A DNA stretch of 64,000 bases from Ruminobacter sp. (GTDB lineage Bacteria; Pseudomonadota; Gammaproteobacteria; Enterobacterales; Succinivibrionaceae). The DNA lies in NCBI GenBank assembly GCA_017940385.1, contig JAGAYS010000057.1, positions 1-64,000 on the forward strand, read 5' to 3'. The notes under the pieces were generated by a model. The model made no database searches. It worked only from the letters and a program-made list of their open reading frames with translations, and was not told the origin of the DNA. This document shows positions 6,157 to 30,445 of the stretch, piece after piece. The translations under genes and the position numbers were made by a program. Positions within the stretch are counted from its first letter, which is position 1. The number at the start of each line of letters is the position of its first letter.

Positions 6157-6792
6157 CTATTTAGTGGCCGTGGCGGCAACATGTTCATTCAGCTGACGAC
6201 TTACGGCATCAATGCCCTTGTCTCTGATTAAACCGCTTAACTCAGACTGCTTTGCACTGAGAAGGCTGATGCCTTCAGCAACCATGTCATATATTTTCCA
6301 CTGTCCGGTCTTCTTATTCTTGCGAAGCTTAAAAATAACCTCAATGTCAGGAGCTCCAGCTTCCTTCACAAACACCTTAACTGAAGTAAATCCGTCATCG
6401 GCATCGACCTTGTTTGGCTTCTGAACTTCAGCAGTCTGAGAAGTGTACTTCTTCAGGGCATCGGCATATGTCGCAATGATATAATCCGTAAAAGCAGACA
6501 CAAACCTGTTTCGCTGCTCTTCGTTAGTCTGCTTCAGATTCTGATTTATTACCTTCAGTGCCGCATACTTATTGTCAATATAAGGCAACAGTTCCGTACG
6601 AATTATGCCTCTTGAGACGCTGGTGTCACCAAGTTTATCCTTATTAGCCTTTATTGCCGAAAAAGTATTGTCAGCCAGTGTTTTAATAAGTTCATACGGA
6701 TCCTCGGAATTCACCTCGGCAGAGGCAAAAGAATTCACGGAAAAACATAAAAACACCACAGCCGCTAAGGCTTTAAAAAATCTGTTCAGCAT
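6157..6792 (-). CDS. mlaC: Periplasmic phospholipid-binding protein MlaC
   Basis: Shuttles phospholipids across the periplasm between the outer-membrane MlaA-porin complex and inner-membrane MlaFEDB. A signal peptide (LNRFFKALAAVVFLCFSVNSFASA, cleavage about residue 25) is followed by the Tol-tol-Ttg2 domain, with LADNTFSAIKANK and a central YADALKKYTSQTAE segment. At 211 residues it equals E. coli MlaC. It is separated from mlaD by an unusually long 206-base gap with its own possible promoter, and is followed at once by mlaB. Confidence 0.93.
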   Translation of the reverse strand: MLNRFFKALAAVVFLCFSVNSFASAEVNSEDPYELIKTLADNTFSAIKANKDKLGDTSVSRGIIRTELLPYIDNKYAALKVINQNLKQTNEEQRNRFVSAFTDYIIATYADALKKYTSQTAEVQKPNKVDADDGFTSVKVFVKEAGAPDIEVIFKLRKNKKTGQWKIYDMVAEGISLLSAKQSELSGLIRDKGIDAVSRQLNEHVAATATK

Positions 6793-6879
6793 TTATTTTC
6801 CTCGCAATTACGGACATCAGTCCCTAAAAGGGATGACACCGGTTATTGTCAACGGGCCTGTTCTTCAGGCCGCCATGTT

Positions 6880-6909
6880 ATTAGATACGTAATCTTTGTA
6901 ATAATTCAA
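6880..6909 (-). promoter_or_regulatory. Possible internal promoter for mlaC-mlaB
   Basis: Minus-strand TTGAAT (6904-6909) and TCTAAT (6880-6885) with an 18-base spacer lie in the 206-base mlaD-mlaC gap. Two hairpins flank it: 6927-6945 (GCGGAA/TTCCGC) just after mlaD and 6855-6871 (GGCCTG/CAGGCC) before mlaC. Together they suggest mlaCB can be expressed separately from mlaFED. Confidence 0.35.
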
Positions 6910-6998
6910 AAAATTTTCAGAAGACGGCGGAACTACCGCTTCCGCATCTCCTTGAGAGCATGTCCGGACTAGACAGGACAAGGAAGTATTCGCGTCGA

Positions 6999-7541
6999 CT
7001 ACTGCACATTCTCCGCATCTCCTGAACCGGAAGATGATGATTCTGAGGAACTGTCTGACTTATTAACGGAATAAAGGAATTTACCGATAAGATCCTCAAG
7101 TACTATGGCCGAACCGGTATCGTTAATTCTGTCACCGTCCTTAAGATAGGTCGTTCCCATATCCTCATCGTAGAATCCCGGGGTAATGCCGATGTACTGT
7201 TCTCCAATGAGTCCTGCGGTAAGAATGGAAGCCTTACTTTCACTGGACAGCATGTTGTATTTCTGCTGAATCTCCATTTCAACAACTGGCACAAGTTTTT
7301 CAGGATCAACATAGATATTTGAAACCCTGCCGATAACCACACCACCGATCTTGACCGGTGAACGAAGCTTCAGGGAACCGACATTATCAAAATACCCATG
7401 AACCGTGTAAGAATCGGTCTTAAAATCGAAAGTCAGACCGGCAACCTTCAGTGCCAGCATTACGCCGCATATGATGGCTGCCACAATAAAACAACCCACT
7501 GTAAATTCAATCTTGCTAAATTTCACTTTTTCATTCCTCAA
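6999..7541 (-). CDS. mlaD: MCE-domain protein MlaD of the Mla transporter
   Basis: An inner-membrane anchored MCE protein; in E. coli it forms a hexameric ring on MlaE through which phospholipids pass. One N-terminal transmembrane helix (about residues 9-30) is followed by the MCE/PHB fold beginning [20 protein letters not shown]. At 180 residues it is close to E. coli MlaD (183). The C terminus ends in a serine-rich low-complexity tail ([13 protein letters not shown]). The start overlaps the mlaE stop by four bases, ATGA-type coupling. Confidence 0.95.
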
Positions 7542-8317
7542 AACATTACGGCAGTTAACACGAAATCAAGTCCAAGAACAGCCAGAGATGACTGAACCAC
7601 GGTATTTGTCGTTGCCTTGCTTATTCCCACGGAAGTAGGAACAAGATCGTAACCGTTGAAAAGGGCGATCCAGATGACGGTTATTGCAAACACCACACTT
7701 TTTACGGCACACATCATCAGATCATCCCAGAAATCAATGGAACTCTGCATACCGCTCCAGAATATGCCGTCATCAACCCCCAGCCAGTCGACACCCACAA
7801 GCTTGCCGCCGAAGATACCTACCAGCGTAAAGATAACCGTAAGCAGCGGCAGTGATATGACACCGGCCCAGAAACGCGGTGCTATAACCCGTCTCAGGGG
7901 ATCCACCGCCATCATTTCCATGGACAGAAGCTGTTCGGTAGCCTTCTTCAGACCGATTTCCGCAGTCAGAGCCGAACCGGCACGCCCGGCAAACAGCAGG
8001 GCCGTAACAACAGGACCCAACTCCCTTATGATTGCAAGAGCCACCATCTGCCCGAGAGCCCCCTCAGCCATAAAATCGACCAGGACGTGGAAGCCCTGCA
8101 GCCCAAGTACCATACCTATGAACAGTCCTGAAACAACAATAATGCTTATGGACTGCACGCCGACAACATAAATCTGCCTGATCAGCTGAGGAAAATTCTT
8201 ACGAAACTGAGGCCTGCCCACCAGGGAATAAAAAAGCATGATCGTCGCCCTGCCTATAGCCGACAACCTGCGCTGTCCCCAGCCACCCAGTTTTAAAATC
8301 AGATTTAATATAAACAT
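7538..8317 (-). CDS. mlaE: Permease MlaE of the Mla phospholipid ABC transporter
   Basis: The membrane subunit of MlaFEDB; 259 residues, E. coli 260. Five to six hydrophobic segments are apparent, and the family signature [20 protein letters not shown] lies in the middle, the loop that contacts the ATPase. The start codon shares one base with the mlaF stop (TAATG arrangement), and the 3' end overlaps mlaD by four bases, so mlaF, mlaE and mlaD are translationally coupled. Confidence 0.96.
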
Positions 8318-9105
8318 TACAAATCCTTGAGATAACTGACTTCAGTCGGATAATTAAAGGGAACAGGACCGTCGTACTCACCTTTTATGAACTGTCTGAC
8401 TCTTGGATCATCGGATTTTTTCAGTTCTTCAGGAGTTCCGCCGGCCACCACCTTGGTACCTGCGAGAATGTATGCATAATCGGCAATCGTCAGAATTTCC
8501 GACACATCATGAGTAACCACAACCGATGTAAGTCCGAGAGTCCGGTTAAGAGTCTTAATAAGTCTGAGAAGCACGGCCATGGTTATCGGGTCCTGCCCGG
8601 TAAACGGTTCATCATACATAATCAGCTCAGGATCCAGAGCTATGGAACGTGCCAGGGTCGCCCTTCTTGCCATACCTCCTGACAGCTCGTGAGGCATAAG
8701 CCCTGCCGCACCGCGAAGTCCTACGGCTTCAAGTTTCATCAGCACCATGTCCCTGATAACTTCTTCGGGAAGTTTTGTATGTTCCCTTATCGGATAGGCG
8801 ACATTGTCAAAAACGTTCAAATCGGTAAACAGAGCCCCGCTTTGGAAAAGCATGCTCATTCTTCTGCGAAGACTGTATAAATCCGGTCTGCTGAGCTTAT
8901 GGACGTTTATACCGTCAAACATTACGGAGCCGGAATCAGGCACAAGCTGTCCGCCTATAAGACGAAGCATTGTTGTTTTACCTGTACCGCTCGGTCCCAT
9001 AAAGGCGGTTATTTTGCCCTTGGGAATTTCAAGACTTACGTTTTCGTAAATTATTCTCTTTCCGTACGAAAACGAAAGATCTTTTATTTCTACTAGATTA
9101 TTCAT
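8317..9105 (-). CDS. mlaF: ATPase MlaF of the Mla phospholipid ABC transporter
   Basis: Energises phospholipid movement for outer-membrane lipid asymmetry. Walker A is GPSGTGKT near residue 37, the signature is LSGGMARRA, Walker B is [12 protein letters not shown] and the switch histidine is in VVTHD. The Gly-Met-Ala form of the signature is typical of Mla/Mkl ATPases. At 262 residues it matches E. coli MlaF (269). First gene of the operon; the adjacent E. coli genes yrbG and kdsD are absent upstream. Confidence 0.96.
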
Positions 9106-9529
9106 AATTTTCCAGTATCATTCTCTGAAAAAACAGTCGGGTATTCTCTTAAAACAGACATTCATTTCCGCCGAGCTGAAAGAACCCGTGTTACCGCGTA
9201 TCTGATTAATTTACTTTAGTTTACGTTTATTAGTCAAAAAATTTGTCAATTAGTTTCGTGATTATTTGTACTCTTACGAAATTTAAAATACGCCACCTCC
9301 ATATCCTTAAACACCGTCTTACGTCATAACCTTTCACGGACCATCATCTTTATTTTCCGCACGGCCGACATAACGGACAAAAAAATTGTGCAAACATACT
9401 ATCGTTGGAATAAAATTCTGTAGATATACCGCACGGGTATCCTTACCCTTTGATTAATATTTCCCAATGATGTTTTGCGGAATACCAAGGAGCATACCGC
9501 GAAACGCTTAAAGCTCACGAGACTGATGT
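9106..9529. other. 424-base divergent intergenic region between mlaF and the Hhe-like gene
   Basis: No ORF or RNA gene is supported here. It must hold promoters in both directions. On the minus strand TTGACT (9232-9237) and TAAATT (9208-9213), 18 bases apart, could serve mlaF. On the plus side no convincing -35/-10 pair or strong Shine-Dalgarno sequence precedes ATG 9530. A short GGGTA/TACCC hairpin lies near 9438-9451. Confidence 0.5.
9208..9237 (-). promoter_or_regulatory. Possible promoter of the mla operon
   Basis: TTGACT at 9232-9237 and TAAATT at 9208-9213 on the minus strand with an 18-base spacer, about 100 bases upstream of mlaF in an A/T-rich stretch. The -10 is a moderate match only. 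Confidence 0.35.
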
Positions 9530-12500
9530 ATGAATACCCAAAATAGTTCGCAGGATGAAAGTAATCAGACAGCAGGCCAGAAAATCAATATTCTGGCAGA
9601 CATAAACGATAACCTTAACTACGTCTCTTTCCACAATAACGAGAGTTTTATTAACAGCATCTACATAACGTCCAACTCTCACATTGACGCCCCTGCCGTT
9701 GAAATAGCATTTGCTTCTGGCATATCCGAAATATACACGGAGAACATCACGGAACTGCAGGCATCAGAGTCTTATGTCATCGAGAATCCGAAAATTGTAT
9801 TCAACCCTCTGACTCTGTCTTCATATACGGACAGTTTCAAGGATGTCATTTACATTACGGTAAAAGACGCGGCAGGTAACGAACTGGGCAAATATTCAAA
9901 AAACATAGAAATTCAGGCACATGATTTCTGGAACATGTCCAAGACTGAAATGCTGGCATCATTCGTGACCCCTAACTCACCGGTTCTTTCGGATCTGCTT
10001 GCCCTTGCGGAAGGGAAATTAAAGAAAATAAACCCTTCTCTCAGCTTCAATGCCTATCAAAGCAATAACATCAACCATGTCAACCAGCAGTTTTCCGCAA
10101 TTTATCAGGCAGTTCAGGATCAGCATATCCGCTACCAGGTAGCTCCCGCATCAGCCCACATACGCGGAGATCAGCGCATAAGAAGCTGTGAAAGCATTCT
10201 TCATGATAAAACCGGGAACTGTCTTGATTTGTCATGTCTTCTGGCGTCTCTGCTTGAAAACGTGGGACTGCACCCCCTTCTCGTGCTTTTTGATGATCAT
10301 GCCTACGTAGGAGTATGGACATGTGCCGATCCGTATCCTAACAGTCTCATAGAAGACAGGGAAACGGTTCTCAAGCATGCGGCAGTAAACATTCACGACA
10401 TCATTCTTGCAGAAAGTACCATGCTCTGCACTTCAGCCTCTTTTGACACAGCCGTAAATGAAGCAGACAAAAATCTGAAGATTAAGAATTTTGAACTGGC
10501 ACTGGACATCTATCGCAGCCGACTCAACGGTTACAAGCCACTGCCTCAGAAAATTCAGAAAGAAGACGGCTCAATAGAGCTTGTTCAGGACAGCAAATTT
10601 AAACAAATCGTCAAGCCGCAGAATCTTGACCCGCTGGAAATACGCATCTCCGAAAACAATCAGGGAAAAATGACGCATCTCCAGATATGGAAAAACAAAC
10701 TCCTTGATCTCAGTCTCAGAAACCGTCTGCTTAACCTGAGATTCGACAAAGGAGCCTGTCAGATCCTTATAAGCACATTGGCGAATTTTGAAGATAATAT
10801 TTCACAGGGAAAAAAATACACACTCAACACCCTGCCTGAAGCTGCCGTAACGGAGTATGAAAATAACAACGGGACTCTTACGGACAATCTTGAAAATCTT
10901 GTCAGTGAAGACGAAAAGACCTGTAATCTTCACGTTCCCATTTCCGATGAAGACACGCTGACAAAAACTCTTCAGAAATTATACAGAGAATCCCAAACCT
11001 CAATGGAAGAAAATGGTGCCAATTCATTCTTCCTTACAATGGGACTGCTTAAATGGTATGAATCCGACACCTCTTCAAATCCAAAATATGCCCCCATACT
11101 GATGATCCCGGTAGACATAAGCCGTAAAAATTCACGCTCACCGTTTGTGCTCTCAGGTCGTGACGAAGAAACCATCATCAATCATACTCTGCTTGAAATG
11201 CTGCGACAGTCATTTGAGATAGAAATCCCGGGACTTGATGATTTGCCGAAAGACGAAAACGGAGTTGATGTTAAGAAAATTCTGGCAATCTTCCGCAAGT
11301 CCGTCATGCAAATGCCAAGATGGGACATTGAAGAAAAAGCAGGCATTGGGAATTTCTCCTTCAGAAAATTCGTAATGTGGCAGGATCTTGTTGCCAATGA
11401 AAAATACTTCAGAAGAAACGAGCTGTTTAACGCGCTGTGTAACGGTACATTCACCGGAGAAAAATTCTCACCCCCCGAAAACATGGGCAAACCTGTAGAT
11501 GAACGTTTCAGTTATGGTGAGCTGTGTCAGCCAATTATGGCGGACACCAGTCAGCTCGACGCACTGTGGCAGGCCTCTTCAGGTCGTAGTTTCGTACTCC
11601 AGGGACCTCCGGGAACAGGCAAATCCCAAACAATTACAAACATAATAGCCGACGCTCTGTCAAAAAGAAAAAAAGTGTTGTTTGTTGCGGAAAAAATGGC
11701 CGCGCTCAGCGTAGTCTTCCGTCGACTCTCCAAACTCGGACTGTCACCTTACTGTCTGGAACTGCATTCTAATACCCAGAGAAAAAGCGTGGTTCTCAAC
11801 AGACTGGCTGAGAGTATCCCTGACGGTCCAAAGAGTAACATCAATGACTTCTCTCTTCTCTGTAAAACACTCAACGGCCAGAAGAACGAAATCAAAGCGG
11901 AAATTTCCGCACTGCACGAAAAGAAGTGCGCAAACCTCAGTGTTTACGATGCCATGTGCATATCGGCCAAAGCCAATGACGTGCCTGCACTTGACGTGGA
12001 TGAGAACTTCCTTAAAAACACAACGGCAGAGATTCTTCTGCAGGTAAATACTGCACTGAGAGAACTCGCCTTGCTGACTCAGGTTAACGATAACCTGGCT
12101 GACAATCCTCTTCATCTGTCTCATCTCTGCAAAGTCCCTGCCGGCACTCCGGACATCAGTACTGAAGACATGATTACTGCAGGCAGAAAGGCTGCAGAGG
12201 CTGAGGAGAAAGCAGAAAGTATTCTCGGCATTCCAAGGGATACTTTGGGCATATTCAAAACGGCTGTAACGGTAAGCAGAATAAACAGACAGATGCAGAC
12301 GCCGGATATCAGTACGGAAATGCTCGGCTCAGCAAATCTTTCAGCACTCTCATCAGAAATCAAGGAGACCGTAAATAAATTCCGAAGAAAGAAGGAACTG
12401 GCTGCCGTTCTCGGTAAAAACGCTGATGATGTACTTTCCGTTGACATTCATAATCTGATAAAAGAGTGGGAACTTGACGAACAGAAATTTTTCATAGGCA

Positions 12501-14692
12501 GGTTCCTGTCACACAGAAACAGTATTTCCGTACTGCAGAAAACTCTGGGAGCTGACATAAAAATCACATCAGACAATTTTCTGGAAACGGCTCAGAAAGC
12601 TGAAGAATATTCCGGAGTATGCAAGGATGCGGAGGTCAGCCTGTCCGCATTCAGTTCCTCATGTCCTAAACTTGCATCTCTGTTTACCGCAGATTCTGAA
12701 AAGGCATGCATATATGCCGAAAACACCCTGAAAGTCGCTGAAGAAATTAAAAATATAGAGAAGGAAATTAACGGCATTCCGGTGCTTTCAAACATAACTT
12801 CCGCCATGAGTTCTGCTGAAAACTCACCGGATTCGGTTATTGCCGGCATCAGTGAAATCAGTTCGGTTCTTGATGCTATGGTCACCGCCGTGCATAAAAT
12901 CACGGAGTATTTCCAGGTTAACGAAAAAGACCTTCCGGCAAGTATTAACGAGGTAACAGATATCTCCAGAGGTCTTCTCGAAAACAGAAACAACATCGGA
13001 GAATGGGCAGATCTTAACTCCCGCCTCGAAAAAATTGCGGCAAACGGATTCGGCCAGCTGGCAGAAAACATAAGACACGGTAAAATAAAATCATCCGTCG
13101 GGGATCACTATGCGGATCTTGTTCTTGCAAAAACCATCTGCAACTACTATCTCAACCACGACACCAGTCTTGCGGGATTTAGGGGAATACTGTTCACCGA
13201 CAAAATGACCCAGCTTGGAGAAAACACCTCAAAATTCAGGGAAGGATGCAAAAACACGCTTCTTACCGCTATGCAGTACTATCGCAGGACGGCTGAAAAT
13301 GATGAAAGCCTCAGTCAGGAAAGAACTTTCCTGTCAAAGGCCATCAAAAACCATGGAAGAAAGCAGAGCATACGCTCCATTTTTGACAATATAGAACATC
13401 TGCTTCCTAAGCTGTGCCCATGCATGCTGATGAGCCCACTGTCAGTTGCCCAGTACCTGTCACCTGACAAATATGAATTCGATCTTATCATTTTTGATGA
13501 AGCATCTCAGCTGCCTACTTCGGAAGCTGTCGGTGCCATTGCAAGAGGGCGTCAGCTTATTGTGGTCGGAGATCCGAAACAGATGCCTCCTACCGACTTC
13601 TTCTCTGCCAAACAGACAGACGTGCCTGAAGAACTTGAAGATCTGGAAAGCGTGCTTGATGACTGCATGGCTCTTGGAATGCCGGTAACAACCCTCAACT
13701 GGCATTACCGCAGCACTCATGAAAGTCTGATAGCCTTCAGTAACATAATGTACTATGAGAACAGACTGTGCACGTTCCCTTCCCCTGACGACCAACAGTC
13801 CAAAATTACCTACATTGAGGTAAACGGCCTGTACGATCGCGGAGGCTCCGGAAGAAATAAGGAAGAAAGTAAACAAACAATAGAATATCTGGAAAACTTC
13901 CTGAGTAATGATGCAAATCTTGATACCTCCATAGGCCTCCTTACCTTCAACAGTCGCCAGCAGGCTCAGCTTGAGGATGATTTGGAAAAACTGTACAGAA
14001 GAAGACCGGAACTCGAAGACAGGGCATTAAAGCTTCCTGAACCGATCTTTATAAAGAACCTTGAAAACGTTCAGGGTGACGAAAGAGACATTATCGTGTT
14101 CTCAATTGGTTTCGGTAAAGACTCATCCGGCCGAATAACCATGAACTTCGGTCCGTTAAACAGAGCCGGCGGTGAAAGACGTCTAAATGTGGCAATTACC
14201 AGGGCAAAGAAAGAAATGGTCGTATTTTCTTCACTTGATCCTGATTCAATGCACCTTACAAACCTGTCTTCAGAAGGAGTCAGAGGCTTAAAGTCATTCC
14301 TTACCTATGCGAAAAAAGGCTACAGGTACCTTCCAAACAGGAATGCAATGCACTCCTTTAAAAACGACAGACTTATAGAGGTTCTCGCAGCCAGACTCAG
14401 GGAACACGGATATGAAAGCACGCCAAGTCTGGGTACCTCAAACTTTAAAATTGATTTGGCTGTTAAGGATCCTAAGAATCCGGCCAGATACGTAGCCTGC
14501 ATAATGAGTGACGGTTACGGCTTCTCGGCTGACTATGCCGTAGCCGATAAATGCTGTGGCCAGCCGTCGGTTCTTACGGGACTGGGATGGAAAATAATCC
14601 GTATCTGGAGCTGTGAATGGTACAGGGATCCTGAAACCGTTCTTCAGAAAGTACTGAAACAGCTTGAAGACATCACGGGAAGCCGTTCCTGA
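9530..14692 (+). CDS. Hhe-like defence protein: transglutaminase-like / DUF4011 / SF1 helicase / Vsr-like nuclease
   Basis: A 1720-residue multidomain protein. In order: an N-terminal beta-rich region (about 1-130); a transglutaminase/cysteine-protease-like segment with Cys231 in GNCLDLSC and His257 in DDHAYVGVW; the DUF4011 signature WKNKLLDLSLRNRLLNL (about 388-404); and a UPF1/UvrD-like helicase with Walker A GPPGTGKS (692-699), Walker B FDEASQ (Asp1323) and motif VI AITRAK (Arg1558). A 620-residue helical insert lies between Walker A and B. The C terminus resembles the Vsr-like MTES_1575 nuclease (Asp1642, GLGWKIIRIWS), but the usual IExDG motif reads IMSDG (Met1659), so cleavage activity is doubtful. 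DUF4011-helicase-Vsr proteins were described as the single-gene anti-phage system Hhe (Gao et al. 2020); defence here is inference by architecture. It stands alone, has a weak ribosome site and a terminator. Confidence 0.85.
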   Translation: MNTQNSSQDESNQTAGQKINILADINDNLNYVSFHNNESFINSIYITSNSHIDAPAVEIAFASGISEIYTENITELQASESYVIENPKIVFNPLTLSSYTDSFKDVIYITVKDAAGNELGKYSKNIEIQAHDFWNMSKTEMLASFVTPNSPVLSDLLALAEGKLKKINPSLSFNAYQSNNINHVNQQFSAIYQAVQDQHIRYQVAPASAHIRGDQRIRSCESILHDKTGNCLDLSCLLASLLENVGLHPLLVLFDDHAYVGVWTCADPYPNSLIEDRETVLKHAAVNIHDIILAESTMLCTSASFDTAVNEADKNLKIKNFELALDIYRSRLNGYKPLPQKIQKEDGSIELVQDSKFKQIVKPQNLDPLEIRISENNQGKMTHLQIWKNKLLDLSLRNRLLNLRFDKGACQILISTLANFEDNISQGKKYTLNTLPEAAVTEYENNNGTLTDNLENLVSEDEKTCNLHVPISDEDTLTKTLQKLYRESQTSMEENGANSFFLTMGLLKWYESDTSSNPKYAPILMIPVDISRKNSRSPFVLSGRDEETIINHTLLEMLRQSFEIEIPGLDDLPKDENGVDVKKILAIFRKSVMQMPRWDIEEKAGIGNFSFRKFVMWQDLVANEKYFRRNELFNALCNGTFTGEKFSPPENMGKPVDERFSYGELCQPIMADTSQLDALWQASSGRSFVLQGPPGTGKSQTITNIIADALSKRKKVLFVAEKMAALSVVFRRLSKLGLSPYCLELHSNTQRKSVVLNRLAESIPDGPKSNINDFSLLCKTLNGQKNEIKAEISALHEKKCANLSVYDAMCISAKANDVPALDVDENFLKNTTAEILLQVNTALRELALLTQVNDNLADNPLHLSHLCKVPAGTPDISTEDMITAGRKAAEAEEKAESILGIPRDTLGIFKTAVTVSRINRQMQTPDISTEMLGSANLSALSSEIKETVNKFRRKKELAAVLGKNADDVLSVDIHNLIKEWELDEQKFFIGRFLSHRNSISVLQKTLGADIKITSDNFLETAQKAEEYSGVCKDAEVSLSAFSSSCPKLASLFTADSEKACIYAENTLKVAEEIKNIEKEINGIPVLSNITSAMSSAENSPDSVIAGISEISSVLDAMVTAVHKITEYFQVNEKDLPASINEVTDISRGLLENRNNIGEWADLNSRLEKIAANGFGQLAENIRHGKIKSSVGDHYADLVLAKTICNYYLNHDTSLAGFRGILFTDKMTQLGENTSKFREGCKNTLLTAMQYYRRTAENDESLSQERTFLSKAIKNHGRKQSIRSIFDNIEHLLPKLCPCMLMSPLSVAQYLSPDKYEFDLIIFDEASQLPTSEAVGAIARGRQLIVVGDPKQMPPTDFFSAKQTDVPEELEDLESVLDDCMALGMPVTTLNWHYRSTHESLIAFSNIMYYENRLCTFPSPDDQQSKITYIEVNGLYDRGGSGRNKEESKQTIEYLENFLSNDANLDTSIGLLTFNSRQQAQLEDDLEKLYRRRPELEDRALKLPEPIFIKNLENVQGDERDIIVFSIGFGKDSSGRITMNFGPLNRAGGERRLNVAITRAKKEMVVFSSLDPDSMHLTNLSSEGVRGLKSFLTYAKKGYRYLPNRNAMHSFKNDRLIEVLAARLREHGYESTPSLGTSNFKIDLAVKDPKNPARYVACIMSDGYGFSADYAVADKCCGQPSVLTGLGWKIIRIWSCEWYRDPETVLQKVLKQLEDITGSRS

Positions 14693-14707
14693 TAAATTTG
14701 AAATGTT

Positions 14708-14741
14708 AAACGGGAGAACTTATCGGTCTCCTGTTTATTTT
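14708..14741 (+). terminator. Rho-independent terminator after the Hhe-like gene
   Basis: A 10-bp stem (14708-14717 with 14727-14736, AAACGGGAGA with TCTCCTGTTT, one G-T pair), 9-base loop, followed by ATTTTT. It isolates the large gene from kdsC. Confidence 0.8.
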
Positions 14742-14868
14742 TCCAATATCGGTGCAGTTTTTGATAGAATAGTATGTTAGAAATGCCGTCTGTGGCACTC
14801 ATAACTTAATTTTGTTGTTAACACAGCCTCAAAATCTGTTTTACCGACACTAAATACGGATGTTTACC

Positions 14869-15423
14869 ATGTCGCTTACAAGATTAACTCCTTACGGTAC
14901 CATTTCCGAAGCATTACTGGAACGAATCGGAAAAATCAGAATTCTGCTCAGCGATGTCGACGGCGTACTGTCTGACGGCAAAATTTATATCTCTAATTCC
15001 GGCGATGAAATCAAAAGCTTCAACACTAAAGACGGTTTCGGCATTGTGGCCGTACAGAAACAGGGTGTGGACTTCGGAGTCATTACAGGCAGGGAATCAG
15101 AGATAGTAAACATAAGAATGAAGTCCCTCGGGGCAAAATACGTTTATCAGGGAATAAGTGATAAAACCGCAGTACTTCAGGAAATAATGAAGACTGCAGG
15201 AGTTACGGCCGAAGAAGTTGCGTACATCGGGGATGACGTTATTGATATTACGGTATTCAATTGCTGCGGTATGTCATTCTGTCCGAAAGACGCACATCCG
15301 ACTGTGTTGGCAGCAGCTGATTACATATGCCATCTTGATGGCGGAAACGGTGCTGTAAGAGAGGTATGCGACCTGATTCTTACTGCCAGAGGTGCCATGA
15401 ACATCATTGGAGCCAGTATCTGA
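14869..15423 (+). CDS. kdsC: 3-deoxy-D-manno-octulosonate 8-phosphate phosphatase (KdsC)
   Basis: A HAD phosphatase that removes phosphate from KDO-8-P to give KDO for the LPS inner core. The C0-type HAD nucleophile motif is SDVDGVLSDG, followed by the YVYQG segment and the acidic motif GDDVID. The C-terminal GGNGAVREVCDLIL matches the KdsC tail that inserts into the neighbouring tetramer subunit. ATG 14869 is chosen; ATG 14860 in frame is an alternative three codons upstream. It heads kdsC-lptC-lptA-lptB as in E. coli, but kdsD, the isomerase normally upstream, is not in the window. Confidence 0.94.
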   Translation: MSLTRLTPYGTISEALLERIGKIRILLSDVDGVLSDGKIYISNSGDEIKSFNTKDGFGIVAVQKQGVDFGVITGRESEIVNIRMKSLGAKYVYQGISDKTAVLQEIMKTAGVTAEEVAYIGDDVIDITVFNCCGMSFCPKDAHPTVLAAADYICHLDGGNGAVREVCDLILTARGAMNIIGASI

Positions 15424-15424
15424 T

Positions 15425-16036
15425 ATGCGCAGAATTCTGAAGATTACCCCATTCATTGTTCTGTTGGTATGTTCCTACTATTTCTACGACTGGGTAAGCG
15501 TACAGGAACAGACTGAAAGAGACAAGCTGCTGGAGGTTCAGCCGGTTTTTTCAGCGCGCAACATTTCAACCAAACAGTACAATTCCGACGGAATGCTGTA
15601 CGGAAGCATAAATGCTGAAGAAGCCGAATATTTTGACAGTCTGGATCAAACAAACTTTACGCACCCGATTGTTACTTATTCTCCGGCTCTGGATAAAAAA
15701 AACAGGGACATGGAAAAACTCAGTTCCGAGAGCAACGGAACCTGGAAAGTTGAGGCGGAAACCGGCTCAATGACAGGCTCGGCAGACACTATTTTTCTGC
15801 GGGGAAACGTTATTGCAAGTTCCTCAGGAAAAAACAGCATCATAAGGGAAATACGCACGTCATACCTGGAAATAGATCTGGGCACTGATGAGGTCAGAAC
15901 TCCCGAAGAAGTGTATATCATCGGTAACCACTTTACTAATCACGGTAAGAAATTTAAAGGCCAGTTAGCCTCAAAGTACTTTGAACTATCAGAGGATTGT
16001 CATGCAACATACACCGGGTTTACTCAAAATAAATAA
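15425..16036 (+). CDS. lptC: LPS export protein LptC
   Basis: A bitopic inner-membrane protein linking the LptB2FG transporter to the periplasmic LptA bridge. A single N-terminal transmembrane helix spans about residues 4-22 (PFIVLLVCSYYFYDW), followed by a periplasmic beta-jellyroll containing VQPVFSARNIST and repeated short beta strands. At 203 residues it is near E. coli LptC (191). ATG 15425 lies one base after the kdsC stop, with GGAG in the kdsC 3' end; the frame runs back to a TTG at 15407. Its 3' end overlaps lptA. Confidence 0.9.
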   Translation: MRRILKITPFIVLLVCSYYFYDWVSVQEQTERDKLLEVQPVFSARNISTKQYNSDGMLYGSINAEEAEYFDSLDQTNFTHPIVTYSPALDKKNRDMEKLSSESNGTWKVEAETGSMTGSADTIFLRGNVIASSSGKNSIIREIRTSYLEIDLGTDEVRTPEEVYIIGNHFTNHGKKFKGQLASKYFELSEDCHATYTGFTQNK

Positions 16037-16628
16037 GTTTACGGCAGTTTGCCTGTTATTCAGCTTTATCGGTCTGATTAACGTTGCCGAAGCAAAACAG
16101 AATGACTTTAAGGAAACAATCAGCATTAGCTCAGGCAGACAGATAGCTGATCTCGGTTCGAATAAAATTACATTTACCGATGAAGTCGAAATAACCCAGG
16201 GCTCCATTAAAATCAATGCCGACAGGGTTGAAATAGTCCGCAATGAAAAAGGCCAGATAAAAAGTGCCACGGCATTCGGCAAGCCGGCCGTGTTTTCACA
16301 GCTTCTAGACAACGGCAAACCGGTAACGGCAAAAAGCCATACCATTGCCTACTATCCTACAAAACAGACCGTCGAGCTTAAAAACAATGCGTCCATCGAA
16401 CAGGGTTCTTCTAAAATAACCAGTGACAGCATCGTCTACAATATTGCCAAAGAAAGGATTGAAGCTTCCTCTAACGAAACATCAGGCAAAAAGGGAAATC
16501 GCGTTACAACAGTCTTCATTCCGGAAGAACTGAAAGCCCAGATTGACGAAGACAAGGCAGAAATTCAGAAAGAAACGGACTCAGAAAAACAGAATGAATC
16601 CAAGAATGAAGATACCAAAAAAGAGTAA
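16002..16628 (+). CDS. lptA: LPS export periplasmic protein LptA
   Basis: Polymerising periplasmic jellyroll protein forming the bridge along which LPS moves to LptDE. A signal peptide ends near AEA (about residue 31). The OstA-like domain follows with [19 protein letters not shown] and [14 protein letters not shown]. At 208 residues it has an extra charged, Lys/Glu-rich C-terminal tail of about 30 residues compared with E. coli LptA (185). ATG 16002 has AGAGGA six bases upstream; the frame extends to 15981. It overlaps lptC by 35 bases and is followed by lptB. Confidence 0.92.
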
Positions 16629-16633
16629 CCCAA

Positions 16634-17362
16634 ATGAGTACATTAAGAGCAGAGCATCTCTTTAAACAGTTTAAATCAAGAGTTGTGGTTAATGACGTAT
16701 CCCTAACCATCAAGAACGGAGAAATCGTCGGACTTCTAGGACCTAACGGTGCAGGTAAAACCACTTCATTTTATATGATTGTCGGTATCATTAAAGCAGA
16801 TAGCGGTCATGTGTTCATTGACGATCAGGAAATAACCCATAAGCCGATGGATCAGCGGGCAGCATTCGGTCTTGGGTACCTGCCTCAGGAAGCATCTATC
16901 TGGCGCAGGCTGACCGTAAGGGAAAACCTCATGGGAGCTCTTGAACTGAATAAAAAAATTCACTCAAAAACTGACAGATACAACCGAATGCAACAGCTTC
17001 TGAGTGAATTCAGAATCGAACACATAGCAGGAAACACCGGCATGAGTCTCTCCGGCGGTGAACGCAGACGTGTTGAAATAGCAAGAGCCCTGGCTTCAGA
17101 TCCGCAATTTATCCTGCTGGACGAACCTTTCGCTGGTGTGGATCCGATAAGCGTCGGTGAAATCAAGGGAATCATAGAGCAGTTACGCAACCGCGGGATC
17201 GGCGTTCTCATCACAGACCATAACGTAAGGGAAACTCTCGATGTCTGCGAAAGAGCGTACATTGTTAATCAGGGAAACATGATTGCCTACGGTAAGCCTG
17301 AAGATATTCTTAACAACGAACTCGTAAAGAAGGTATATCTGGGTAACGACTTCTCCATCTGA
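16634..17362 (+). CDS. lptB: LPS export ABC transporter ATPase LptB
   Basis: The cytoplasmic ATPase of LptB2FGC that powers LPS extraction from the inner membrane. Walker A is GPNGAGKTT near residue 38, then [15 protein letters not shown], signature [15 protein letters not shown], Walker [14 protein letters not shown] and switch His in [10 protein letters not shown]. At 242 residues it matches E. coli LptB (241) almost throughout. It ends the kdsC-lptCAB unit; in E. coli rpoN would follow on the same strand, but here rpoN is inverted and a terminator intervenes. Confidence 0.97.
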
Positions 17363-17471
17363 TATTTTTATGTCCTGAAACCTGACTTCATACTGCTGAT
17401 AGAATTCTTAGCGTATCAGTGCAGTTTATGTTATGAAAACATGTATTTCAGAAAACATCTGATTATCCGTC

Positions 17472-17493
17472 GCCGGCCGTCAGGCCGGCTTTT
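17472..17493 (+). terminator. Rho-independent terminator after lptB
   Basis: A perfect 7-bp GC stem (GCCGGCC at 17472-17478, GGCCGGC at 17483-17489), 4-base loop GTCA, then TTTT. It separates lptB from convergent rpoN. Confidence 0.85.
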
Positions 17494-17525
17494 CGTTACG
17501 TGACCTTCTGCAGTACGAAACGGGA

Positions 17526-19118
17526 CTATATGACCTTTCTCTGACTTGAAGGAGGAATGTTCAGCGATTCACGATACTTGGCTATTGTTCTTCTTGCCAC
17601 CTGAATTCCCTCATTCTCCAGAATCTTGGCCAACTGACTGTCAGAAAGAGGCTTTTTCTGGTTTTCCTCACTGATAAGCTTTTTAATCTTAGCCCTAATG
17701 GCCGTTGATGAAAACTCATCGGAGCTATCCGTGGAGCTGACGTGGCTGCTGAAAAAATACTTCAGCTCAAAAGTACCTCTCGGAGTATGGATATACTTTT
17801 CCGTGGTAACTCTCGAAATTGTTGATTCATGCAACCCTGTTTCCATGGCAATGTCATTCAGAACAAGAGGCTTCATGAACTGTTCCCCATGTTCAAAAAA
17901 ATCCTGCTGATGCTGAACAATGCACGATGCCACCCTGTAAAGAGTCTCATTGCGTTTGTTAACGCTCTGAATGAAAGAGTGCGCTTCCTGCATATGATTA
18001 CGTATGTACTGATTCTCCTGAGGATTTCTGACATTACTGCACAGCTGACAGTATGTTTCATTTAACTTTATTTTAGGAATTGCATTCGGATTCAGTTCAG
18101 CAATCCACACGCCGTCTTTCTTGTGAACGGAAACATCAGGTATTACATATTCACTCTTCTCCTGAGGAATACAGTTTCCTGGTCTTGGTTCAAGTCTGGT
18201 AATGATGTCTATGGCATCCTTCAACAAATGACTGTTTTTTTCCTTTATATCAAGATTTTTGGCAAGGGTTCTGAAATCCTTCTTTCCCAGAAGTTCGAGA
18301 TAGTCGGACACGATAACCCTGGCAAGACGCACGTTATCATCATTGTCGAACTGACTTAACTGAATTAAAAGAGATTCCTGCAGACTTCGGGATGCAATAC
18401 CAACGGGATCAAAATGCTGAACAACATTCAGAACCCTTTCAACATCAGCCATGGTCACCTCAGGAAACTCAGGCATTACTGCGGAAATAATGTCATCAAG
18501 AGACTCGGTAAGATAACCGGATTCGTTAATTCCGTCCAGAATAGCCTCGGCTATCAGATGATCAGAGTCACTCATAGGTGTCAGATTCAGCTGCCAGCTG
18601 AGATGTTCGGCAAGGCCATAACCGGTTGCCCCCTGATAATCATCCAGATCGTCTCCGTCTGAATTGTGAGTCCGCCGCGATGAAACTCCAGCGCTGTACG
18701 ATTCCTGCCAGAAATCAACTTCACCGCCACTGTCAGTCATCGTACTCCCGTCTTCACGGGAAATGGAATTATCACCGCCATCCTCACCTTTTAACGGGGT
18801 ATAGTCATTCTCCCCGCCGCCGTCAGCATAGGGCGCATTGTCCAGCGAAACCGTAGTATCGTTATTAAAGGGAGTAATATCATCATTTCCGTTTTCGAGA
18901 CGGTACTCTTTTTCCCTGATTTCATCAAGTGACGTGACATTACTGGAACCGGAGTCGTTCTCCTCCATTTCCAGAAAAGGATTCTTGTCCAGATTCTCCT
19001 GTATCTCATGCTGGAGATCTATGGTTGACAGCTGCAGCAATCTTATTGCCTGCTGCAGCTGCGGAGTCATTGTCAAAGTCTGAACATTGACTTGATTTAG
19101 ATTTAATCCGGCTTTCAT
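17526..19118 (-). CDS. rpoN: RNA polymerase sigma-54 factor (RpoN)
   Basis: Alternative sigma factor for -24/-12 promoters, used with AAA+ enhancer-binding activators. Region I is the Gln/Leu-rich N terminus (LNQVNVQTLTMTPQLQQAIR). An acidic, low-complexity region II (about residues 50-165) is followed by core-binding and DNA-binding domains, and the RpoN box reads ARRTIAKYRESL near residues 508-519 (canonical ARRTVAKYRE). At 530 residues it is longer than E. coli RpoN (477), mainly through region II. It lies on the minus strand between lptB and hpf, whereas in E. coli and relatives lptB-rpoN-hpf-ptsN all point one way. A 57-codon ORF lies 82 bases upstream on the same strand. Confidence 0.96.
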   Translation of the reverse strand: MKAGLNLNQVNVQTLTMTPQLQQAIRLLQLSTIDLQHEIQENLDKNPFLEMEENDSGSSNVTSLDEIREKEYRLENGNDDITPFNNDTTVSLDNAPYADGGGENDYTPLKGEDGGDNSISREDGSTMTDSGGEVDFWQESYSAGVSSRRTHNSDGDDLDDYQGATGYGLAEHLSWQLNLTPMSDSDHLIAEAILDGINESGYLTESLDDIISAVMPEFPEVTMADVERVLNVVQHFDPVGIASRSLQESLLIQLSQFDNDDNVRLARVIVSDYLELLGKKDFRTLAKNLDIKEKNSHLLKDAIDIITRLEPRPGNCIPQEKSEYVIPDVSVHKKDGVWIAELNPNAIPKIKLNETYCQLCSNVRNPQENQYIRNHMQEAHSFIQSVNKRNETLYRVASCIVQHQQDFFEHGEQFMKPLVLNDIAMETGLHESTISRVTTEKYIHTPRGTFELKYFFSSHVSSTDSSDEFSSTAIRAKIKKLISEENQKKPLSDSQLAKILENEGIQVARRTIAKYRESLNIPPSSQRKVI

Positions 19119-21974: not shown

Positions 21975-23060
21975 ATGTTTGAAATTAAAGGTAAATACTG
22001 TACGGCCATATGTTATGCATCTGTTGCCGATTCCTGTGCCGTGGAACAGATAAGAAGAATGTGTAATCACGTGTTCACCGAAGGAGCACAAATCAGAATA
22101 ATGCCAGACGTTCATGCTGGCAAAGGATGTACCATAGGTACCACCATGACCATAAACGACAAAGCTGTTCCAAATGTTGTCGGTGTCGACATTGGATGCG
22201 GGATGTATACAATTAATTTGGGGAATACGGACATTGATTTTAAGGCTTTCGATTCCGCAGCACACAGACTGCCGTCGGGAAGAAACCTTCACCCAAGCCC
22301 GATTGAGGAATTTAATTTCAGGGAATTGCGGTGCTACGCACAGATAAAGGATCTGCCCCGACTCAACGCCAGCCTGGGAACGCTGGGCGGAGGTAATCAT
22401 TTCATTGAAATTGATGAAGCCGCTGACGGCACAAAATATCTTGTTATCCACAGCGGCAGCCGCAATCTCGGAAAACAGGTTGCAGAATACTATCAGAATC
22501 TTGCTGTTGAACTCAATCGCAATTCCGGAATACCGGAGGATCTCTGTCATCTTAGCGGAAAATACCTTAATGACTATCTTCACGACGTAAATGTCTGTCA
22601 GCGTTTTGCTCTAAGAAACAGGGAAATTATGGGAAACATGCTGCTTAATGAATGCGGCCTTAAAGGAGGCTCAGCATTCCACACTGTTCATAACTACATT
22701 GATACAAAAGAAATGATTCTGAGAAAAGGCGCCATTTCCGCCCACAGAGGAGAACTGGTTCTGATACCAATTAATATGCGTGACGGTAGCATTATCGCCA
22801 GAGGAATCGGAAACCCGGAATGGAATTTCTCGGCGCCTCACGGAGCAGGACGGGTGCTGTCACGTTCCCAGGCCAAAAACATTCTAAGCCTGGAAGAATT
22901 CAGAGCGGCAATGCAGGGCATTTACACAACTTCCGTATCCGCAGCCACTTTGGACGAATCACCAATGGCATACAAATCAATTCATGACATTACCGATGTC
23001 ATTAACGACTCAGTGGATATCATAGACGTGCTCAAACCCGTGTACAACTTCAAAGCATAA
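21975..23060 (+). CDS. RtcB-family RNA ligase
   Basis: RtcB joins 2',3'-cyclic phosphate or 3'-phosphate RNA ends to 5'-OH ends, using GTP and Mn2+. Visible motifs in family order: MPDVHAGKG (43-51), GVDIGCGM with Asp72 and metal ligand Cys75, LGGGNHF with His142, HSGSRNLG with His159, and APHGAGR with the likely guanylylated His289. At 361 residues it is shorter than E. coli RtcB (408), and ADVHxGKG/SCHGAGR are slightly varied, more like the RtcB2/RtcB3 paralogue groups. No prfH, rtcA or rtcR lies beside it. It sits between rpoH and ftsX on the opposite strand. Confidence 0.88.
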   Translation: MFEIKGKYCTAICYASVADSCAVEQIRRMCNHVFTEGAQIRIMPDVHAGKGCTIGTTMTINDKAVPNVVGVDIGCGMYTINLGNTDIDFKAFDSAAHRLPSGRNLHPSPIEEFNFRELRCYAQIKDLPRLNASLGTLGGGNHFIEIDEAADGTKYLVIHSGSRNLGKQVAEYYQNLAVELNRNSGIPEDLCHLSGKYLNDYLHDVNVCQRFALRNREIMGNMLLNECGLKGGSAFHTVHNYIDTKEMILRKGAISAHRGELVLIPINMRDGSIIARGIGNPEWNFSAPHGAGRVLSRSQAKNILSLEEFRAAMQGIYTTSVSAATLDESPMAYKSIHDITDVINDSVDIIDVLKPVYNFKA

Positions 23061-26968: not shown

Positions 26969-29900
26969 CTAACCGAGAATCAGCTCGGCATCCCGTTTGT
27001 GACGGTTTTCTTCTATGATGCCCAGATACTTGATGGCCATAACCTGGCCATTCTTCAGTTCCCTCTGACTAAGGTGAGATAAAAGACTGTTCTTGAAATT
27101 GATGGCATCCCTGTATGTGTTGTCAAATGACAGACACAGAACAGTCCACATGTAGGCATCGACATAACTCCTGTCCACGCCTGCTCCGTCCCTGTACATC
27201 TTGGCAAGTTCAAGCTGAGCCTCGTGATCACCGCATTTGGCGGCTGTTGACAGAAGATCTCCGGCACTGAAATTATTGATCTCACATCCAAGGCCAAAGC
27301 GATACATTTTACCGAGCAGGGTTGTGGACTTTAAATGATTCTGCCCCACGGCCCTCTGAAGATAGCCGATGGCCTTGGAATAATCTCTTGGGAACAGATT
27401 TCCCTCCATGAAAAGACATGCCAGATAATACAGCGCATCTGCATAGTTACGTTCAGCCGCCTCTCTTATCAGTTTCAATCCGTAATCAACCGAACTGTTT
27501 CTGACTTTTTCCTCCATGTGAAGAATACCGAGTCGATATGCGCATTCAGGAATATTTTTCTTGGCACCTATGTACAGCCACTTTTCGGCTTCATCATAAT
27601 TTATCTGAATGTTGGAGTTATTGCGAAGATATACATTGGCAAGCAGGGAATACGCCTTATCATAATTGGCGTTCACCAGGATACGGTAATAATTCGCTGC
27701 CTCATGATAATCGCAGACTCCGCCAATCCCCTTCTCATACATCTGCCCGAGTGCCAGATATGCCTTAAGATACCCCAGTTCTCCCGCCTTACGGAAGTAA
27801 TTGAAGGCATCTCCTGTTTTGGAAATCATTCCAATGCCCCTGTAACAGAATATTCCCATCATGTAGAGAGCTTTCACGTAATTCTGCTCAGCAGAGTCAT
27901 TTATGAGTGATACGGCCCGACGGTAATTACGCGGTACTATTTTTCCCTCGTAATATATCATTCCCAGCTCATAAAGAGCCTCCCTGTTCCCCTCGGCGAC
28001 CACCTGCTCCAAAAGCTTCAGCCCCTTCTCAACATTCTTCGGAACCTCACCTCCGCTCAGATAAAGCCTGCTGAGTATCAGCATACTCTGGGAATGCCCG
28101 AGTGCAACTTCCTTTTCCAACAGATTCAGAGCCTTTTCCGGAGAACGTACGGAGCTGTTTGAATTCATGTAAAGACCGGCCAAAAGATCTACGGAATTGT
28201 CACTTCCATGCTCCACAGCCAGGCTCAGATATTTTTCCGCCAGTGACTCATCCCTCGTACAGCCGCGACCATTGATGTAACATATTGCCAGAGATTCCAT
28301 TGCCGGGATATACCCGTTTTCGGCAGACTTAACATACAGAGAGAATGCCTTGGCATAATCCTGCTGAACGCCTCTTCCGTCAAAATACATCTTTCCCAGT
28401 CTAAACAGCGCCTTTGCATTTCCCTTGTCGGCAACCATTCGATACCATTCGACGGATTTCTGCAGATTTACATCCAATACCTCGCCTTTGTCATACAGTT
28501 CAGCCATATAAAGTTGGGCATCCAAATCTCCGGCATTTGCGGCCTTTTCACACCACTGAATCGATTGGGCAAAATCCTGTCTGACACCTTCCCCTTTTGA
28601 GTACATTTGTGATACCAGATACTGAGCCCTTGGTTCGCCACCAAGAGCGGCCTTGTTCATATACTCAAAAGCTTCATGATACTTCGGCTTGTAATTGTCA
28701 TATTCTTTAAGATATTTGTATCCATGCTGCTTGTCAGGAACCTGCTGTACCAGTCTGAAAGAACTTGGCATTATGTCCATGTCCGCAGGCCGTGCATGAT
28801 TCGAAGAAGCAGATTCGGCATCAAGCTTCTCTTTCAGCATGGTTGCATATTCATACATTGCTGCAATATGCTCATGATCCGCAGCCTTCTTATACCAGGC
28901 CATTGCATCATCTATAAGCCCTTTTTTATGATATATGCACGCCAGCTTGTACTGTGCTTCGGTAAAGCCAAGCTCAGCGGACTTGCCGTAAAGCTCATAG
29001 GCAATGTCTGAATATCCTTTGCCTGATATGTCTCCGATAATGCCTGAAAGAATGTCAGCCGCCACACCTGATTTAAGCAGATCCGTTGCTGCCACATCCC
29101 CTGTCACCTGCTCTTCGTCAGTGACAGCTTCATGCTCATTATCTGACTGAGTTTTCTCATTATCCGGGAATGAAGTTTCAGCAGGCCCCCTTTCGGTCGT
29201 CATACTGAAATTGTCATTGTCTTTCCTATCCTGAGCGTTATCCGCCTGCAGATATTTCGAATTCGAATCTGACGATTCACTGATGTCAGGTTTTACATTC
29301 TCCCCGTGCTCATCAACTGAATTTCGTCGATTGTCAATAACCTTGTCAAGAGCCTTGTTTTCACCGAATCTCTCAAAAATAAGAGCGAGAAGATAAAGTG
29401 ATTCACTGTCCTGTTTATCGGCAACATGCTTAAGAAGCGGGAGAGCATCACTGTACTTTCTCTCCAGAATGTAGAGTTTTGCAATCTCGACGTATGCTCC
29501 AAGCACCCCCTCAGCCTTAGCCTTTTCCAGATATTCACGTGCCTTTTCGGCATCATACTGAACAATGTCATCACGCAAATATATCTGAGCAAGCATCATG
29601 TACGCTTCAGGACACAGTTCCTTTACCTGATTTAAAAGTCTGACGCCTTCTTCAGGAGAATAAAACTTATTCTTTCTGTCTGTATAAATCTTTGCAAGTT
29701 CGCAATGTGCTCTGTAAATTCCCTGTTCCCTGGCACGGCCAAGCCACAGCAGAGCCATCAAATCGTCCTTGGGTACACCTTCCCCTCTGAAGTACAGACA
29801 TCCAAGCTCATACTGAGCCATCGCATGCCCCTTCTGCGCGGCACGGCCAAGCCAGAAAGCCCCAACTTTAAGGTCCCTGCTTTCCTCATCAAGGTTTATC

Positions 29901-30445
29901 ATGCCGTATTCATACATGGCATTTACATATCCCTGATTAGCGTAATAAAGCACTGATTCCTTGCGTCTTTCAATCCCGAGATCTCCGTTCCCGTCTTTTA
30001 AAAAGTCCTTCTCGGTATATTCTTTGGGAGGTGTAAGCTGTTGGGAATCCATGGCCATTGCATCATCAATACTGTCCTGAGTCTCCCTTAAACTCTCCAG
30101 TCGGTACTTTGCCGGAGGAAATCCCATGTCCGCACTTTTCTGCAGAAGTTTTTCCGGGTCTTCAGATGTCCGCGGATTAATAACCTTGTCCAGAATCATG
30201 GTAGCAATAAAACATAAAGCTTCCGCCTGTTCATTTCCACGGCACTGTCTGAATAGAGATGCGGCTTCCTCACAGTTACCTGCACGGTACAGTGCCTTTG
30301 CTTCAGAAAGGAGTGGAGAATCTGTTGCTGTTTCTTCCCGATGCATAACGAATCCCGCTGATTTATCTATATATCTGTCCAACGCATTCCGCGACATGTG
30401 CATGCATTCCGAAAACCTGCAGGCCGGAACCTTATTACGGCGCAC
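26969..30445 (-). CDS. Large Sel1-repeat (TPR-like) protein
   Basis: A 1158-residue protein made almost wholly of Sel1-like repeats of about 36 residues, for example AQYELGCLYFRGEGVPKDD, AQYLVSQMYSKGEGVRQDF and ALFRLGKMYFDGRGVQQDY. Roughly 25 repeats form two blocks separated by an acidic, Ser/Asn-rich linker at about residues 368-448. No signal peptide or transmembrane segment is evident, so a cytoplasmic scaffold is likely. Sel1 proteins commonly mediate protein-protein contacts in signalling or host interaction; no catalytic domain is seen. The listed start is a GTG without a clear ribosome site; ATG 30346 (residue 34), preceded by CGGGA, is a good alternative. Convergent with rsmD. Confidence 0.85.
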   Translation of the reverse strand: MRRNKVPACRFSECMHMSRNALDRYIDKSAGFVMHREETATDSPLLSEAKALYRAGNCEEAASLFRQCRGNEQAEALCFIATMILDKVINPRTSEDPEKLLQKSADMGFPPAKYRLESLRETQDSIDDAMAMDSQQLTPPKEYTEKDFLKDGNGDLGIERRKESVLYYANQGYVNAMYEYGMINLDEESRDLKVGAFWLGRAAQKGHAMAQYELGCLYFRGEGVPKDDLMALLWLGRAREQGIYRAHCELAKIYTDRKNKFYSPEEGVRLLNQVKELCPEAYMMLAQIYLRDDIVQYDAEKAREYLEKAKAEGVLGAYVEIAKLYILERKYSDALPLLKHVADKQDSESLYLLALIFERFGENKALDKVIDNRRNSVDEHGENVKPDISESSDSNSKYLQADNAQDRKDNDNFSMTTERGPAETSFPDNEKTQSDNEHEAVTDEEQVTGDVAATDLLKSGVAADILSGIIGDISGKGYSDIAYELYGKSAELGFTEAQYKLACIYHKKGLIDDAMAWYKKAADHEHIAAMYEYATMLKEKLDAESASSNHARPADMDIMPSSFRLVQQVPDKQHGYKYLKEYDNYKPKYHEAFEYMNKAALGGEPRAQYLVSQMYSKGEGVRQDFAQSIQWCEKAANAGDLDAQLYMAELYDKGEVLDVNLQKSVEWYRMVADKGNAKALFRLGKMYFDGRGVQQDYAKAFSLYVKSAENGYIPAMESLAICYINGRGCTRDESLAEKYLSLAVEHGSDNSVDLLAGLYMNSNSSVRSPEKALNLLEKEVALGHSQSMLILSRLYLSGGEVPKNVEKGLKLLEQVVAEGNREALYELGMIYYEGKIVPRNYRRAVSLINDSAEQNYVKALYMMGIFCYRGIGMISKTGDAFNYFRKAGELGYLKAYLALGQMYEKGIGGVCDYHEAANYYRILVNANYDKAYSLLANVYLRNNSNIQINYDEAEKWLYIGAKKNIPECAYRLGILHMEEKVRNSSVDYGLKLIREAAERNYADALYYLACLFMEGNLFPRDYSKAIGYLQRAVGQNHLKSTTLLGKMYRFGLGCEINNFSAGDLLSTAAKCGDHEAQLELAKMYRDGAGVDRSYVDAYMWTVLCLSFDNTYRDAINFKNSLLSHLSQRELKNGQVMAIKYLGIIEENRHKRDAELILG

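Follow-up and report, generated by a model that had tools for sequence, protein, structure and literature searches.

A ProA-family protein of a predicted nuclease-inactive branch occupies a recurrent insertion site between mlaF and kdsC in Ruminobacter

A 1720-residue protein encoded in a 64,000-nucleotide stretch of Ruminobacter DNA (hereafter the window) is, almost certainly, a member of the ProA family of anti-phage proteins. The family itself was already known; what is new here is that this ProA member comes from a branch with a predicted loss of the nuclease, and that its site has received defence genes on more than one occasion. The protein joins a DUF4011-helicase core to a C-terminal nuclease-like domain, in which predicted catalytic residues have been replaced, and to an N-terminal transglutaminase-like region whose peptidase-like site looks intact in the window's branch. 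The combination of a dead-looking nuclease and an intact-looking peptidase site suggests that the mode of attack may have shifted from DNA cleavage to protein cleavage.

Results

The gene spans 9530-14692 on the forward strand, the strand of all of the protein features given below, and comprises 1720 codons and a stop in an uninterrupted frame. DUF4011 (PF13195) occupies 10697..11203 (residues 390-558; Pfam E 1e-39) and is followed by both parts of an SF1 helicase of the SMUBP-2/Sen1/Upf1 type. The first part (11543..11935) matches AAA_11 over residues 672-802 (E 5.3e-19), with the Walker A motif at residues 692-701 (GPPGTGKSQT). The second part (13496..14230) extends from DEASQ at residue 1323 to the end of the AAA_12 match at 1567 (residues 1374-1567, E 2.7e-18) and includes GDPKQMPPT at 1347, WHYRS at 1391, VQGDERD at 1514 and NVAITRAKK at 1553. 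A fast-evolving stretch (11960..13339, residues 811-1270) separates the two parts. The closest PDB sequences are helicases of the SMUBP-2, Sen1 and Upf1 type, and the Pfam matches and motifs agree with an earlier note on this DNA, which had recognized DUF4011 and a complete SF1 helicase in one 1720-residue open reading frame. At the C terminus lies an MTES_1575 (PF18741) Vsr-like domain that is predicted to be inactive (14384..14665, residues 1619-1712; E 8.6e-20, 71 bits with a cut-off of 38.2). The transglutaminase-like region covers residues about 141-330 (9950..10519), where a weak Transglut_core match coincides with conserved C/H/E columns; the codons of the predicted triad are at 10220 (C231), 10298 (H257) and 10412 (E295).

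The earlier note had taken the protein for an Hhe-like one, citing Gao et al. 2020, in which Hhe reportedly protects against phage. A profile search gives ProA instead: the earlier reading was right about the superfamily and wrong about the member. The protein passes the equivalog model NCBIfam NF058533 ('anti-phage protein ProA') with 1609.7 bits at a cut-off of 1500, residues 30-1716 aligning to model positions 1-1707 of 1903. With the Hhe model, NCBIfam NF042953, it scores 693.4 bits at a cut-off of 2000, and Hhe membership is rejected by this score. All five relatives that were scored pass ProA and fail Hhe. DUF4011, the SF1 helicase and MTES_1575 are common to Hhe and the window protein, and the domain order of the latter is the same as in ProA relatives that pass the cut-off. 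It differs from the ProA model in that the C-terminal model positions 1708-1903 are unmatched; two other proteins, L122 and L032, likewise pass the cut-off with this part unmatched. The C terminus is short, with 23 residues after W1697 compared with at least 200 in 29 of the 34 proteins of the sister branch described below. PADLOC agrees with NCBIfam in the order of closeness, placing PDC-S37 first (981 bits, residues 383-1715) and Hhe behind it at only 496 bits, where PDC-S37 is a candidate system only and its match leaves out the N-terminal region. A search of the open literature returned nothing on ProA, experimental tests included. In PMC8249566, a DUF4011/MTES_1575 protein is named in a table only, and neither Hhe nor Ruminobacter is mentioned in the main text of PMC11834463, a survey of defence systems in the rumen.

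For the protein survey, 82 proteins were extracted and 72 kept (at least 1400 residues; L134, L140 and L141 were also excluded). Five distant rows were set aside ahead of tree building and column counting, three in which both sites are absent (L158, L159 and L161) and two that are unreadable at the nuclease columns (L162 and L168). The resulting 67 rows, arranged on a FastTree tree of the DUF4011-helicase part, comprise the 16 of the window's branch, 34 of a ProA sister branch and 17 that lack the transglutaminase region and that we label 'Hhe-like'. Where nuclease-intact relatives have the pattern D...ECDG..YH...D, the window protein has D...MSDG..FS...C, so that M1659, S1666 and C1675 replace E, H and D. 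The Glu is found in none of the 16 rows of the window's branch (Met in 10, Leu in 5 and Ile in 1), whereas 33 of the 34 sister-branch rows and all 17 Hhe-like rows keep it; the His is similarly missing from all 16 and present in 33 of 34 and 16 of 17. An Asp at position 1675 is absent from the whole branch and present in 34/34 and 16/17 of the other groups. At this position, 6 of the 16 rows have Glu, a mild change that counts against reading the domain as inactive. All 16 rows retain D1642, D1661, G1662, D1673 and W1697. From these residue patterns, we consider the nuclease to be probably inactive. The Vsr-like region of the earlier note is borne out as a domain match and not in its predicted catalytic site, and the nuclease effector that it implied is unsupported. 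Searched against the PDB, the domain profile matched an endonuclease-like protein at E 0.006, and Vsr insignificantly at E 0.46-0.67.

The 67-row tree requires two state changes for the nuclease and three for the peptidase, and both nuclease-losing lineages include rows with an intact peptidase set. One is the window's branch, which holds Ruminobacter, other Succinivibrionaceae, one Bacteroides plasmid protein and one predicted viral contig. The second is the Acinetobacter plasmid protein L122 (5995-11148), a ProA that has separately lost the nuclease Glu and His and has kept the peptidase set. In L033 (Succinimonas amylolytica) and L034 (RUG12170), we observe a second MTES_1575 within the first ~135 residues; this N-terminal copy has the Glu and His, both of which the C-terminal copy has lost.

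Transglut_core matches the N-terminal region at E 0.00076 and 20.2 bits, below the Pfam cut-off of 23 bits, and is absent from the whole-protein Pfam listing at E <= 0.01. When the threshold is relaxed to E 1, the match recurs in 9 of 11 close relatives; at a limit of E 0.1, it recurs in 9 of 21 diverse relatives. C231, D233, H257 and E295 are invariant in 21 diverse rows, which were chosen for carrying the region. Within the window's branch, the Cys and the His are each kept in 15 of 16 rows (33 and 32 of 34, respectively, in the sister branch), and the full C-H-E set is kept in 13. Two rows, L041 and L042, have Asn as the third triad residue, and L039 has neither the peptidase nor the nuclease site. 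A region-profile search of the PDB gave no significant fold support, its best match being a transglutaminase-like protein at E 0.96, and a longer N-terminal profile found nothing relevant there. The domain itself had been described before: Anantharaman et al. 2013 (PMC3710099) reported proteins that fuse a transglutaminase-like domain with an SF-I helicase and a Vsr REase, and proposed protein cleavage for them. The earlier note had missed this region, together with the loss of nuclease residues and the short C terminus.

Compared with the 93%-identical gene of the uncultured Ruminobacter RUG10948, the whole gene has a dN/dS of 0.097. The DUF4011 and helicase parts are the most constrained (0.03-0.04), followed by MTES_1575 (0.06) and the transglutaminase region (0.08), with the inter-helicase stretch at 0.19; only the RUG10948 ratios are used because dS is saturated in most comparisons with R. 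amylophilus. The nuclease-like domain is still constrained. Decay of the gene is disfavoured by its open frame and the whole-gene ratio.

The gene sits between two cell-envelope operons, flanked on the left by mlaF (8317..9105, reverse strand; Pfam, NCBIfam and locus comparison) and on the right by kdsC (14860..15423, forward strand; NCBIfam and locus comparison). A stem-loop followed by a T-rich stretch at 14707-14737 (forward strand) forms a probable terminator between the gene and kdsC. None of 200 shuffles is as stable (z -3.93), and the element is absent from the output of a simple terminator scan. Because this stem-loop comes after the stop codon, the gene is probably transcribed alone, and an operon with kdsC is disfavoured. 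As the earlier note had described, this is a single gene of a defence family within a housekeeping stretch that lacks recognized mobile-element remnants: Pfam and NCBIfam on nine neighbours (6157-19118), with other open reading frames judged by eye, revealed no recombinase or IS. As to other defence genes nearby, PADLOC on seven neighbours gave only weak ATPase-type cross-matches of the two ABC ATPases. Several modes of arrival were also considered. The GC contrast is not clear enough for a recent foreign insert by composition, a tRNA-borne insertion is rejected, the sole tRNA of the window lying at 76-160, and the flanking repeats are only short, imperfect, chance-like pairs.

The closest relatives are those of RUG10948 and the type strain R. 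amylophilus DSM 1361, the latter protein being 74% identical and at the same site. A kdsC match was present in 53 family genomes, and we examined the locus in 52 of them, many on metagenome-assembly contigs; in the 53rd, kdsC is at the contig start. In the stretch examined, mlaF lies upstream of kdsC in 40 of the 52. The interval holds kdsD in 21 of these 40 loci, ProA in 4 (all of the window's genus) and neither kdsD nor a 140-residue open reading frame in 15. Cargo other than kdsD is present in six: the four ProA genes, an ApaLI-like restriction-modification pair (G033) and a membrane transporter (G015). The pair, from another genus (L090 2239-4039), consists of an ApaLI-like enzyme (E 2.1e-77) and a DNA methylase (E 1.2e-50) located between mlaF and kdsD. 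As a separate observation, kdsD has gone from the interval both in the window's genus and at 15 further loci (L114-L118 examined); it has not been lost altogether from the genus, being located elsewhere in all four genomes.

The suggestion of the earlier note that the gene may be anciently fixed here holds only in part: ProA lies between mlaF and kdsC in 4 of 4 sampled genomes of the genus, but two ProA lineages occupy this site in opposite orientation. In RUG065, the fourth genus member, the gene is inverted, and its product shares 39-40% identity with the window protein, compared with 60-61% for the Succinimonas-type proteins. A tree uniting the four same-site proteins is rejected (AU p 4.2e-5), for a grouping defined by synteny, though an earlier tree had been seen first, and with a long-branch warning for L041 and L040. 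The inversion and the rejected grouping indicate that ProA either entered this place twice or was replaced there; differential loss from an ancestral pair is a possible alternative. The mlaF-kdsC interval is a recurrent insertion site rather than a proven hotspot, a term that we avoid because the events are few. The kdsD of RUG065 is 80% identical to the copy in the window genome, but within 1.5 kb of it we found none of the neighbours that match in the other two relatives.

Across the family, a match at E <= 1e-20 occurs in 14 of 34 sampled genomes besides the window's own, with none in the other 20; the universal conservation that the earlier note had named as grounds for abandoning its reading is not seen. 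These matches, which span more than one subtype, are all-or-none by genus: 3/3 besides its own in the window's genus and 5/5, 2/2, 2/2, 1/1 and 1/1 in five others, with no match in 8 of the 14 sampled genera. The neighbourhood varies among genera. In genus g5, prmA is close to the gene in 4 of 5 genomes (adjoining it in three and about 5 kb off in L036); an xseA-type gene and, by eye, a MutT-like gene are close to it in 2/2 of g9, and a Band_7 gene is next to it in 2/2 of g11. Of 369 genomes sampled from the class, 7 pass the ProA cut-off, as do 32 of 398 from the phylum, the window's own genome included, in searches that gave loci for part of the matches only; among controls in two ProA family searches, 2 of 14 genomes matched below the cut-off and none above. 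Relatives are also found in 426 plasmid records, of which only 8 cover 80% of the query, on one predicted viral contig and in one unannotated phage record. Acinetobacter accounts for 13 of the 30 plasmid matches listed.

Discussion

Sequence evidence makes a defence function likely, and we tentatively view the window gene as a chromosomally maintained, probably monocistronic ProA member of the nuclease-inactive branch with a peptidase effector mechanism. In this proposal, the DUF4011-SF1 helicase would bind and move on foreign or abnormal nucleic acid. MTES_1575 would no longer cut and would instead serve as a nucleic-acid-binding or structural piece, because its catalytic residues are lost while its fold residues are kept under purifying selection. 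Engagement of nucleic acid would release the N-terminal transglutaminase-like cysteine peptidase, which would then cleave a host or phage protein and stop infection. The weakest link is the assignment of the peptidase as effector, to which we give a little less than an even chance. We count in favour of the proposal the ProA score, the branch-wide residue loss, the peptidase conservation, the rows with an intact peptidase set in both nuclease-losing lineages of the tree, the dN/dS values, the N-terminal domain of L033 and L034, the fusions of PMC3710099 and the ApaLI-like pair; against it stand the sub-cut-off Transglut_core match, the missing PDB fold support, the siteless L039, the Asn in two rows and the Glu at position 1675.

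That the Vsr-like domain at the C terminus retains nuclease activity on phage DNA through other residues is very unlikely. Its good MTES_1575 match (71 bits versus 38.2), its purifying selection (dN/dS 0.06) and the retention of D1642, D1661 and D1673 would agree with such a nuclease defence, but none of the 16 proteins here has either the Glu or the His, which 50 and 49, respectively, of the 51 proteins in the remaining groups retain. The motor might also act by itself, blocking phage replication or displacing phage complexes, with the end domains in binding or regulatory roles. DUF4011 and the helicase are indeed the most constrained parts (0.03-0.04), and L039 retains them without either effector site; conservation of the peptidase Cys and His in 15 of 16 branch rows nevertheless makes this account an improbable one.

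A housekeeping gene for nucleic-acid repair or processing that became fixed, with no role in defence, would explain the all-or-none pattern by genus (4/4 in the window's genus; 5/5, 2/2 and 2/2 in three others) and the prmA, xseA or Band_7 neighbours in most genomes of those three other genera. It would also fit PMC10250203, which places a DUF4011 gene in every P. aeruginosa isolate. Yet 20 of 34 sampled family genomes and 8 of 14 genera have no match, the sites differ between genera while two lineages share one site, kdsC is probably not co-transcribed, and relatives occur on plasmids (426 records, only 8 of which cover more than 80% of the query), on the predicted viral contig and in the unannotated phage record. 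We judge a purely housekeeping role to be unlikely. Returning to the peptidase mechanism, a broader scenario would extend it to a branch-wide effector switch, from a nuclease reduced to a pseudo-enzyme to a helicase-triggered peptidase of transglutaminase fold, with Succinimonas and a relative re-armed by fusion of a fresh nuclease to the opposite end and repeated entry at a chromosomal mlaF-kdsC defence site; we offer this as a speculative possibility, with the chances leaning against it.

Profile-based tools would call the window gene a helicase-nuclease. If the nuclease is dead branch-wide, these proteins form a natural separation-of-function set in which the peptidase and the helicase could each be studied alone, and nuclease-based mechanisms for the family would need revision. 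The genome of the type strain R. amylophilus DSM 1361 makes the question testable.

Among other known systems, the MTES_1575-type giant proteins of PMC3710099 resemble the window protein in that a single chain carries a transglutaminase-like peptidase along with an SF-I helicase and a Vsr REase. These giants additionally have HEPN and wHTH/DUF3320 domains, and their REase is regarded as a DNase; none of the three was found in the window protein. According to PMC10250203, the P. aeruginosa DUF4011 gene flanks the defence hotspot cDHS1. As a large, fixed DUF4011 gene near a place that collects defence genes, it gives an earlier example of a superfamily member that became fixed in a chromosome.

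Two further features of the surroundings were noted. Beside L039 (G008), a branch member that lacks the transglutaminase region, lie relatives of two window genes: the aldo/keto-reductase-like gene (48%) and the gene at 21975-23060, which is RtcB-like by eye (45%). The window also encodes, at 26969-30445, a 1158-residue protein with the look, by eye, of a long Sel1-type repeat protein.
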